Shown here: positions 42,241 through 52,132 of the stretch, in pieces
Layout: the number at the start of each line of letters is the position of its first letter
How positions within the stretch are numbered: position 1 is the first letter of the stretch
DNA from: an uncultured Aquimarina sp.
Lineage (GTDB): Bacteria; Bacteroidota; Bacteroidia; Flavobacteriales; Flavobacteriaceae
Direction: 5' to 3'
Length of the DNA stretch: 64,000 bases
Assembly (NCBI GenBank): GCA_947500845.1
Contig: CANMTP010000001.1
Span: forward strand, 248,001-312,000
The notes under the pieces: model-generated
Databases searched by the model: none
Told to the model about the DNA's origin: nothing
What the model saw: only the letters and a program-made list of their open reading frames with translations
Program-made: the position numbers and the translations under genes

Positions 42241-42464
42241 GTGTCGTATTCAAAATTTTATGGATGTAATGTTACGATATTAATAAAATTTATGCAACGT
42301 CTGGATCGAGTTTAATTTTTTCAATGTAGATCAAAGTATGGAGTTATAAAGGGATGATGTACTCGTTTTAATAAATATATGCATTTTATCGAATTTATTT
42401 GCTTTTTGTCGATATAAGTAGTATTATTGTCCTATAGTTTTATTTAAAACATAGAAAGTTAACC

Positions 42465-42472
42465 TACTTTTG
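42465..42472 (+). promoter_or_regulatory. -7 box upstream of the C-rich hairpins
   Basis: TACTTTTG, full match to TAnnTTTG. Start of transcription would be expected near 42479, with no coding frame before the terminator at 42582. Confidence 0.5.
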
Positions 42473-42478
42473 AAGTGT

Positions 42479-42608
42479 AAAATAAAAAGAGTAAGAGAAA
42501 AATTGGAATTGATTGTTTTAAACTTTTTTTGCCCCTCGAAAGAATAATTCCCCCCGAATTATTTGATCCCAAAACCTATAAAAGCCTCTTCCCCCAGAGG
42601 CTTTTTTT
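42479..42608 (+). ncRNA. Candidate small RNA with C-rich hairpin loops
   Basis: About 130 bases between a -7 box and a strong terminator, with no convincing ORF. Hairpin 1: AATAATTC (42543-42550), loop CCCCC, GAATTATT. Hairpin 2 is the terminator, whose loop is TCCCCC. A third C run (GCCCC, 42531-42535) is unpaired. C-rich loops are a known means for small RNAs to pair with G-rich targets. It could instead be a leader that attenuates the CPBP protease gene starting 54 bp further on. Not identified as a known RNA family. Confidence 0.45.
42582..42608 (+). terminator. Terminator with TCCCCC loop
   Basis: AAGCCTCT, loop TCCCCC, AGAGGCTT, then T residues. Strong intrinsic terminator lying between the starts of two divergent genes, so it must end a transcript that begins in the gap. 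Confidence 0.85.
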
Positions 42609-50159: not shown

Positions 50160-50164
50160 TTTAG

Positions 50165-50172
50165 TAATTTTG
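50165..50172 (+). promoter_or_regulatory. -7 box very close to the kinase start codon
   Basis: TAATTTTG ends 4 bp before ATG 50177. If used, the transcript would begin at or within the start codon (leaderless). Confidence 0.4.
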
Positions 50173-50176
50173 GGGA

Positions 50177-52132
50177 ATGAAACTTTGGCGCGTCACTTCC
50201 CCATTTTACTTTCTTATATGGGGTGTTATCTTATTTACTAGTATTTTATCTACTTTAGGTCAAACTGAAGAAGTAAAAGCTCCTTCTCTAGAAGTATTAG
50301 ATAGTATTTCTAAATGTTATGAATTAAGTAAATCAGATTCTTTATCTATCCAGCAAAGATTAAAATATGTTTCTTCTTTTTTGGAGAAAGCTTTATTTTA
50401 TGAAAGAGATTCATTAATTTATAATGGATTGATGCAAAAAACAATGCTTTTAAGTAAGTCCAGAATGCTCGATAGCGCAATAGCATATTCTTACCAATTG
50501 TATGACTTTGCAAATCAAAATTTGGATACAACTTATATGCTAAAAGCTTCTATAAAGTTAGGGTTTTATCATAAAAAAAATAACAAACCAACTAAGGCTT
50601 TTCAGTATTACAATGAGGCTTTCAAAATTTCCCGAAAGAGAAAAGATAGTTTGGTTGCAGGTAAAAGTTTACTACAAATGGCAAATATACAAAGTACACT
50701 TGGCGATTATTCCGGAAGTAAGACTACTGCCATAGATGGAGTTAAATATCTTGAAAACACTAATGATTTAAAAAGCCTTGCAGGTTTATATCACATTATT
50801 TCTGTAGCAAATAGAGAGCAAAAAAATTATATCGGAGCTATAGAATATAATGAAAAAGCGCTCAAAATAGATGCTACTAATAGAGGTACTCAAATTTTAA
50901 AAAACACTAGAGCGAATATTTTAGCTGATCAAAAAAAATACAAACATGCAATATCAATTTTGTCAGGATTAGCATTAGATTCCTTGATCAAAAAGAACAA
51001 AAATAGCTATGCAAGGGTATTAGGTAATTTAGGCTATATAAAATGGCTTCAGGATAAGGATGATAGGAATGCGGAAACTTTATTACTTCAATCAATGAAA
51101 CTTCGAGAGGAAATACAAGATGTTCAAGGTTTGATTGCAAATAATATTCATTTGGCCAAGTATTATTTCGATAAGAATATAGTAAAATCTTTGAAGTATG
51201 CAGAATCTGCTTATCAGTATGCATTAGAACAGCATAGTTTGACATCAATTATTGAATCTCTAAGTCTTATATTTAAGTTAAAAGAAGAGACCAATGATGA
51301 GGCAAAAGTGTACGATAAAATACATAATGAGCTAATCGATATTACACAAAGAAATAGAGAAATATATGCGGTAACCAAATATGAGAATGATAAATTGATT
51401 ACAGAAAACTTAGAACTTGAAACAGAAAAAGCAAAGCTGGAAGTAGAAAAAGCCAAAGAAGAGCGAGAAAACATTATTTATCTTTTTGGTAGTATAATTT
51501 TAATACTTTCTACAGGGTTTGTGGTGTACTTGTTACAACAACGACATAAAAGAGAACGTATACGTGATGTTTTTAATGCTGAAACCCGAATTTCTAAAAA
51601 ATTACATGATGAACTGGCAAACGATGTCTATCATGTAATGACACAAATACAAAACAAAAGAAATGATCATGAAGTGTTGGATAAATTAGAGGATATTTAT
51701 AGTCGTACCCGTGATATCTCCAGGGAAAATAGCAATTTTAAAATTAACAAAGATTTTGTGCATGAGCTTAGCGGTATGCTAAGTAGCTATGGATCTCTTG
51801 AAACTAAGATTATTATAAAAGATATCGATGATATCCATTGGTCATCAATAACTCCCGAAAAAAAAATAATTATTCATCGTATTATACAGGAATTAATGGT
51901 CAATATGAAAAAACATAGCCAAGCTACTTTAGTTGCTGTAACCTTTAAAAAAGGACTTAAAACCCATGAGATTAGCTATGCAGATAATGGCGTTGGTGTT
52001 GCCAAAAATGATATAATTTATAGTAGCGGACTCCAGAATGCGGAAAACCGTATAAAAACTATTGGTGGATCATTTATCTTTGACTCTGAAGAGGGAAAAG
52101 GCTTTAAAGCCAGAATACATTTCCCAAATTAA
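50177..52132 (+). CDS. TPR sensor histidine kinase (HisKA_3/NarX-like)
   Basis: 651 residues. Signal segment (FLIWGVILFTSILSTLGQ), TPR repeats at about 50-370, coiled coil at 400-430, transmembrane segment near 434-452 (NIIYLFGSIILILSTGFVVY). The dimerisation helix has His477 in RISKKLHDELANDVYHVM, and the ATPase domain IIQELMVNMKKHSQAT (N box) and YADNGVGVAKND (G1). This layout is the NarL-partner class of kinases. It probably senses a periplasmic ligand through the TPRs. The response regulator gene follows after 20 bp. Confidence 0.9.
   Translation: MKLWRVTSPFYFLIWGVILFTSILSTLGQTEEVKAPSLEVLDSISKCYELSKSDSLSIQQRLKYVSSFLEKALFYERDSLIYNGLMQKTMLLSKSRMLDSAIAYSYQLYDFANQNLDTTYMLKASIKLGFYHKKNNKPTKAFQYYNEAFKISRKRKDSLVAGKSLLQMANIQSTLGDYSGSKTTAIDGVKYLENTNDLKSLAGLYHIISVANREQKNYIGAIEYNEKALKIDATNRGTQILKNTRANILADQKKYKHAISILSGLALDSLIKKNKNSYARVLGNLGYIKWLQDKDDRNAETLLLQSMKLREEIQDVQGLIANNIHLAKYYFDKNIVKSLKYAESAYQYALEQHSLTSIIESLSLIFKLKEETNDEAKVYDKIHNELIDITQRNREIYAVTKYENDKLITENLELETEKAKLEVEKAKEERENIIYLFGSIILILSTGFVVYLLQQRHKRERIRDVFNAETRISKKLHDELANDVYHVMTQIQNKRNDHEVLDKLEDIYSRTRDISRENSNFKINKDFVHELSGMLSSYGSLETKIIIKDIDDIHWSSITPEKKIIIHRIIQELMVNMKKHSQATLVAVTFKKGLKTHEISYADNGVGVAKNDIIYSSGLQNAENRIKTIGGSFIFDSEEGKGFKARIHFPN

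Follow-up and report, generated by a model that had tools for sequence, protein, structure and literature searches.

A predicted multicopy family of C-rich small RNAs in Aquimarina and its candidate LytTR regulator

The gap between the genes nhaC and CPBP of an Aquimarina genome, which diverge around it (gene calls, Pfam), carries a predicted small-RNA gene that is a member of a so far undescribed multicopy Aquimarina family. The DNA analysed, a stretch of 64,000 nucleotides referred to here as the window, comes from contig C1 of this genome, and the closest relatives of its NhaC protein are titled Aquimarina (among the best 80 of 571 relatives). Genome comparison establishes the gene family, a fixed promoter layout, conserved C runs that are exposed in predicted folds, and the occurrence of the promoter's direct repeat beside one LytTR gene. 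Our proposal as a whole, to which we give a probability of roughly 0.6 and in which transcription, regulator identity and pairing are all inferred, is that the plus strand from 42477 to 42608 would encode one member of the family, a trans-acting small RNA some 130 nt long that acts by base pairing and whose gene is activated by a LytTR response regulator. A single system unites an RNA family with a promoter layout and a regulator candidate, and the question is raised of how C-rich small RNAs act without a Shine-Dalgarno G tract. An earlier note on this DNA had described a single candidate RNA; the tandem family and the repeat go beyond it. The features of the locus, in window coordinates, are as follows.

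42380 to 42393, plus strand: first half-site of the direct repeat, TGCATTTTATCGAA (sequence, pattern, consensus)
42400 to 42413, plus strand: second half-site, TGCTTTTTGTCGAT, 20 bp from the first (sequence, pattern, consensus)
42465 to 42472, plus strand: -7 box TACTTTTG; the repeat's first TTT, at 42384, lies 81 bp upstream (sequence)
42477 to 42608, plus strand: predicted small RNA, its start placed from the position of the box and its end at the T run
42495 to 42511, plus strand: GAGAAAAATTGGAATTG, part of the 5' stretch that is best conserved among window-type copies (alignment, fold)
42531 to 42535, plus strand: GCCCC after a T run, four C unpaired (sequence, fold, alignment)
42543 to 42563, plus strand: hairpin with a C-run loop, AATAATT-CCCCCC-GAATTATT (fold, pair count)
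42568 to 42570, plus strand: short CCC between the hairpins (sequence, fold)
42580 to 42605, plus strand: terminator hairpin AAAAGCCTCT-TCCCCC-AGAGGCTTTT (terminator scan, fold)
42602 to 42608, plus strand: terminator T run of seven consecutive T (sequence)

The -7 box, two C-loop hairpins, unpaired C run and strong terminator that had been described between the divergent genes are all present. The plus strand of 42465-42608 folds at -29.3 kcal/mol against a shuffle mean of -17.5 (z -3.64), a value reached by none of 200 shuffles, whereas the minus strand of the same stretch is unexceptional (z -0.35; 73 of 200 shuffles as good). A terminator scan of 701 bp returned two sites, a single stem found once on each strand, against a shuffle mean of 0.2. 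Some details of the earlier description need amending. Its loop contents were CCCCC and TCCCCC, of which the second is correct while the first has six C by sequence; its three C-rich segments exist, alongside a fourth run at 42568-42570. The pairing of GCCCC, given as unpaired, depends on the stretch folded: from 42476 on, the four C are free and the G is paired, but the segment is partly paired when 42465-42608 is folded. The GAGAAAAATTGGAATTG stretch is A-rich and weakly paired in the lowest-energy fold. The predicted start of the RNA was set by the position of the box in Flavobacterium psychrophilum, -12 to -5 in the available part of the report (PMC9723704). In Rfam 15 the best match of the region scored 25.2 bits against a gathering threshold of 55, so that no family was reached, and a scan of the whole window returned six tRNAs only. 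The RNA sequence occurs once in its own genome, with a single copy at the nhaC-CPBP gap. On the other side of the gap, a stretch of about 40 bp upstream of nhaC (42262-42302, GGATGTAATGTTACGATATTAATAAAATnTATGCAACGT) varies little across the Aquimarina gaps listed and is probably the nhaC promoter or operator.

The RNA gene is found at the same nhaC-CPBP place across the genus. In the loci read there are one to three copies, arranged in tandem, which stretch the gap from 422 bp to 1264 bp. Sixty-six distinct copies were catalogued from 37 loci, a set that omits copies missed by the script, such as the first one in L098; typed by crude rules, they divide into 34 A, 14 B, 9 C and 9 D, some of the C copies resembling A. 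Among the best 80 of 571 relatives, grouped by title or identity into Aquimarina-like and other nhaC loci, the direct repeat (at most 3 mismatches) was found at 29 of 31 Aquimarina-like loci against 1 of 49 others, and a GCCTC/GAGGC-like terminator at 27 of 31 against 0 of 49; where those other loci lacked CPBP, up to 1500 bp was read, and 262 bp in L155. Aquimarina brevivitae has neither the repeat nor a GCCTC/GAGGC-like terminator at its nhaC locus. Terminator stems vary by species, with GCCTC, CCCCGG and CCTTGG types, the latter two carrying a loop without CCC. Together these data argue strongly for a family of conserved small-RNA genes whose promoter layout is fixed and whose transcription is predicted. 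A literature search by title and start of abstract, which covered few subscription journals, returned nothing on Aquimarina small RNAs; a search by title, similarly restricted, returned no LytTR-small RNA system under Bacteroid- or Flavobacteri-.

The repeat has the consensus TTTNRTCGA-N11-TTTNRTCGA, often preceded by TGY. Its distance to the -7 box is 81 in 54 of the 66 copies, a count made on copies whose selection favoured 79-83. When 50 gap repeats (at most 2 mismatches) were taken without regard to offset, an exact TANNTTTG was found at +81 in 36, at +80 in 5, and once each at +79 and +82, the next commonest offset being +39 (n=6). The pattern repeat-81-TANNTTTG (at most 2 mismatches) occurs in 49 of 52 Aquimarina genomes, with 174 matches against 3 for the reversed pattern, and at no more than 1 mismatch in 4 of 149 genomes of the family at large. 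Six loci with the pattern were fetched from three other genera, and a C-loop RNA of the window kind was found in none of the five that were read, L094 being the sixth. In the window's own genome the full pattern is confined to the window copy; the repeat alone (at most 3 mismatches) is found 31 times and its reversed pattern 12 times, so a single weak site carries little weight and not every one of these is real. The same -7 box is in use in F. psychrophilum, according to the part of the report available (PMC9723704).

What might act at this repeat? LytTR sites are described, in the accessible part of the source, as repeats of 9-11 nt separated by 11-13 nt (PMC4847170), and the Aquimarina repeat, with 9 nt repeats and an 11 nt spacer, falls within that definition. 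In the own genome one copy of the repeat (L033) is located 69 bp upstream of a gene whose product carries Response_reg and LytTR domains (Pfam). A LytTR-adjacent repeat (at most 3 mismatches) was found in 27 of 52 Aquimarina genomes, a search in which at least two extra matches (G009, G027) are other repeats, and its distance to the LytTR gene is 64-69 bp in all ten fetched loci, own included. On the other side of the repeat rpsF is about equally near in 8 of the 10. Nevertheless, rpsF is some 280 bp away in the own genome and, with a second LytTR-like gene between, about 1 kb away in L200, and in both the repeat is still beside the LytTR gene. The gene was matched at E<=1e-40 in 98 of 120 genomes of the family, the weakest perhaps being paralogues. 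Upstream of its orthologue a repeat-like site (at most 3 of 16 mismatches) is present in 11 of the best 30 loci, own included, compared with 1 of 301 other windows, a background of largely coding DNA; seven of the 11 sites have nearly one common block. The orientation of the repeat to the gene in Aquimarina differs from that in most other genera with the site. An AraC-type regulator was also considered, prompted by the spacing of araI. On these grounds the LytTR response regulator gene is the best candidate for the activator of the repeat-driven RNAs, though rpsF is usually equally near, and the association of gene and site makes LytTR control of the RNA family likely.

The 66 copies contain 203 runs of at least three C against 4 runs of at least three G, and 126 runs of at least four C against a mean of 4.7 and a maximum of 12 in 200 mononucleotide shuffles. 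Partition-function folding of the 66 RNAs leaves C runs 85% unpaired, compared with 33% for other C. In lowest-energy folds, CCC lies in the last hairpin loop of 44 copies (absent from it in 22), in another hairpin loop of 35 and in an unpaired stretch of 41; 18 copies combine all three placements, and 3 have it nowhere exposed. Other parts of the RNA change, but the C runs persist and are for the most part unpaired. The conservation of C loops in relatives, on which the earlier note had staked its reading, is thus real in that the runs persist but uneven as to place, from 44 of 66 for the last loop and 35 for the other to the 3 copies with none. The small-RNA gene it proposed, about 130 nt long and with more than one exposed C run, is supported by the family comparison and the folds. 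Covariation lends the middle hairpin no support: the RNA is kept in Aquimarina nhaC-CPBP gaps and this hairpin is kept too, 85% paired by pair count, but no two-sided change appears in the alignment (MAFFT, some rows shifted).

In the favoured reading, the LytTR response regulator would bind the two upstream 9-bp repeats and activate a sigma-A promoter a set distance away. The resulting RNA would expose C runs in a loop, a single strand and the terminator loop, plus its A-rich 5' stretch, and may base-pair with a few specific G-containing RNAs through several sites per molecule. Putative pairing through the C runs is plausible. As a general rule, pairing of C loops with G-rich start sites finds no support: between -60 and +20 of 313 predicted genes (444,004 bases, own genome) GGGG was seen 9 times against about 28 expected, on which a general anti-start-site role is rejected, and CCCC was seen 22 times in the same positions. 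Flavobacteria are described as devoid of Shine-Dalgarno sites in the part of PMC9723704 available and GGGG is depleted at starts, so the RNA would need specific G-containing partners.

No target emerged: neither the kinase candidate in the window nor 29 sites complementary to the 5' stretch yielded a convincing mRNA. The kinase gene at 50177, with TTTTGGGGA ahead of its ATG, was rejected since GGGG is present in only 5 of 15 orthologues compared (15 of 31 matches listed), and since TTTTGGGGA overlaps a -7 box, TAATTTTG. The start codon of this TPR kinase stands directly behind the TAATTTTG box (50160-50180), so it is perhaps a leaderless gene, or one whose true start lies further downstream. 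The complement of the 5' stretch (at most 3 mismatches) has 74 sites in the own genome, the RNA gene included, against 38 for the reversed pattern. Of the other 73, the 29 examined include one on the sense strand at codons 7-12 of a 512-aa protein and another 103 bp ahead of a start; the rest of the 29 are not near the start of an 80-codon frame. Further genes with GGGG near the start are L186, L189, L195, L196 and L197, the last encoding a cadherin/CHU_C protein.

Other RNA-like units stand behind the repeat. One in the own genome (L052, contig C7) has C runs, a CCCCC terminator loop and a -7 box at +80. Two tandem units, L041 and L055 (G000:C10, about 95226-95567, minus strand), both have the -7 box at +80 and are flanked by what are presumably dcp and purE. 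Two more, L058 and L059 (G000:C15:17293 and 17808), have no clear -7 box at +81; these and L072 are tandem RNA-like units with terminators that have GTGAGGACATTAG and CTAAAGAGAGTAC in common, and a relative exists in G011. Rfam returned two sub-threshold matches for the related repeat-driven units and none at gathering threshold. The C10 pair recurs in relatives, one of its RNAs carrying an apical GGGGUAU loop and the other not, and this loop is conserved while the flanking stem varies.

The G-loop RNA suggests a rival explanation, in which C-loop and co-regulated G-loop RNAs meet loop-to-loop and titration sets a threshold within one regulon. We consider this unlikely, although it survives best among the alternatives. 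Its fuller form, in which one LytTR regulator drives opposed C-loop and G-loop RNAs that pair through exposed loops and the output follows from the ratio of tandem copies, is slightly more doubtful still; if true, a group without Shine-Dalgarno sites would have a built-in switch that works by RNA-RNA titration. The G-loop RNA lies behind the same repeat: the best one within -140 to -60 sits 93-95 bp ahead of the RNA motif in 30 of 30 fetched loci, with at most 2 mismatches in 28. At least three of the four G are unpaired in all eight G-loop RNAs folded, and the pattern is as genus-limited as the C-loop RNA (33 of 52 Aquimarina genomes against 0 of 197 of other genera). The C terminator loop seen most often, AUACCCCA (8 of 66), is the reverse complement of UGGGGUAU, and complementarity within a genome is 7.6 nt, compared with 6.66 when flanks are permuted (200 permutations, maximum 7.47; 17 genomes). 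However, complementarity between genomes, at 8.1, is as good, which argues against coevolution of C and G loops, and it is only 6 nt in the own genome; the signal depends largely on related species with one common terminator loop. The duplex of the whole window RNA with its own G-loop RNA, at -43.0, is better than the shuffle mean of -29.3 but falls short of the minimum of 300 shuffles (-43.6), and its pairs are spread over most of both molecules, stems included.

A C-loop RNA is present in 25 of 33 genomes (G000-G032) at E<=1e-4 in or beside the gap, a cut-off chosen afterwards, and the exact G-loop pattern in 22 of these 25 against 1 of the 8 others (Fisher 2e-4, kinship ignored). A renewed search of 11 genomes lacking one or both RNAs, plus two controls, added G015 (loop AGGG) and G024 to the G-loop genomes; G022 matched only at the LytTR-adjacent repeat, and a weak match in G028 without a G loop was not counted. 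The result, 24 of 25 against 1 of 8 (Fisher 1.4e-5), again ignores kinship, and the Fisher values are no evidence of function. In G013, a genome 78% complete with no C-loop RNA at E<=1e-4, three tandem copies of the G-loop pattern lie at C17:62081-62878.

Decoy action of RNAs occurs in other families. That the present RNA is a decoy for a C-rich or A-rich single-strand binder (an RRM protein, cold-shock protein or Rho), with no RNA pairing, seems improbable to us. It would fit the many exposed C runs and few G runs, and the fact that the best-conserved stretch is the A-rich 5' segment, outside the C runs. An RRM protein is reported to bind small RNAs in Bacteroides, in the part of the source available (PMC11697453).

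It is far less probable that the unit is a leader or attenuator of CPBP and not a free RNA. CPBP starts 54 bp past the T run on the same strand, but tandem copies have their own promoters and terminators with only the last adjoining CPBP, a unit of the same make stands at an unlinked place (L052), and L131 has no CPBP in the 2500 bp searched. Least credible is a short peptide, for which there are a 14-codon TTG frame after the A-rich stretch of the window copy, ATG in 44 of 66 copies and 13 ATG frames of at least 10 codons that end inside an RNA, since the window RNA has no ATG, several copies of the window type have lost the TTG and the encoded peptides vary from copy to copy.

The favoured reading, a regulator-driven base-pairing RNA, has its closest analogue in LhrC of Listeria monocytogenes, to which it is compared by description and with no homology implied. 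The part of the LhrC report available describes five copies that depend on one response regulator, LisR, and on the promoter region upstream of -53, with redundant C motifs in a loop, a single strand and the terminator loop that block the Shine-Dalgarno sequence (PMC4132741). The window copy has a C motif in all three places, as do 18 of 66 in the Aquimarina family; both families are multicopy, the Aquimarina copies being tandem in relatives and single at the own-genome gap, and its regulator inferred. They differ in phylum, in the regulator (LisR against a LytTR candidate) and in Shine-Dalgarno pairing, given the rarity of GGGG at Aquimarina starts. The Aquimarina RNA has no Rfam match of any kind, in a library whose inclusion of LhrC is unconfirmed.

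In the same phylum as Aquimarina, Bacteroides has the paralogous small RNAs FopS/GibS, with 14 copies, said in the accessible part of the report to be deposited in Rfam; FopS is described as having a single-stranded 5' stretch with the seed R1, a terminator, canonical promoters and several loci (PMC11697453). The Aquimarina RNA differs in its C-run loops, tandem array and activator-type repeat, and it has no FopS match in the Rfam scan, the FopS model being unconfirmed in the copy used. Rfp18 and other small RNAs of F. psychrophilum, which belongs to the same bacterial family as Aquimarina, are transcribed on their own, according to the available part of that study (PMC9723704); this likeness too is by description. 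The csRNAs of Streptococcus are likewise several small RNAs under one response regulator, CiaR, as in the proposed system.

Protein genes also stand behind the repeat, among them one that looks like mscL, a small lipoprotein gene and one for a 48-aa membrane protein. The promoter is therefore not confined to RNA genes, and because the repeat precedes these three, a role of the RNA family in envelope or osmotic stress may be guessed at. In this respect the repeat differs from the site of the Escherichia coli LytTR regulator YpdB, in which GGCATTTCAT is directly repeated across an 11-nt gap and for which one target gene is reported (PMC4847170). The Aquimarina repeat resembles it, often reading TGYATTTYATCGA with a 20-bp period, but heads several RNA genes as well as protein genes. 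The gene for the 48-aa membrane protein (MKKNF...KILFG), behind the repeat in L037, L275, L276, L277 and L281, has a -7-like box at a distance of about 50 bp from where the repeat starts, roughly three helical turns closer than 81. Lipoprotein-like genes follow the repeat in L036, L070, L073, L081, L087 and L280, and in five of these six, L073 being the exception, CCCC lies shortly ahead of the start codon.
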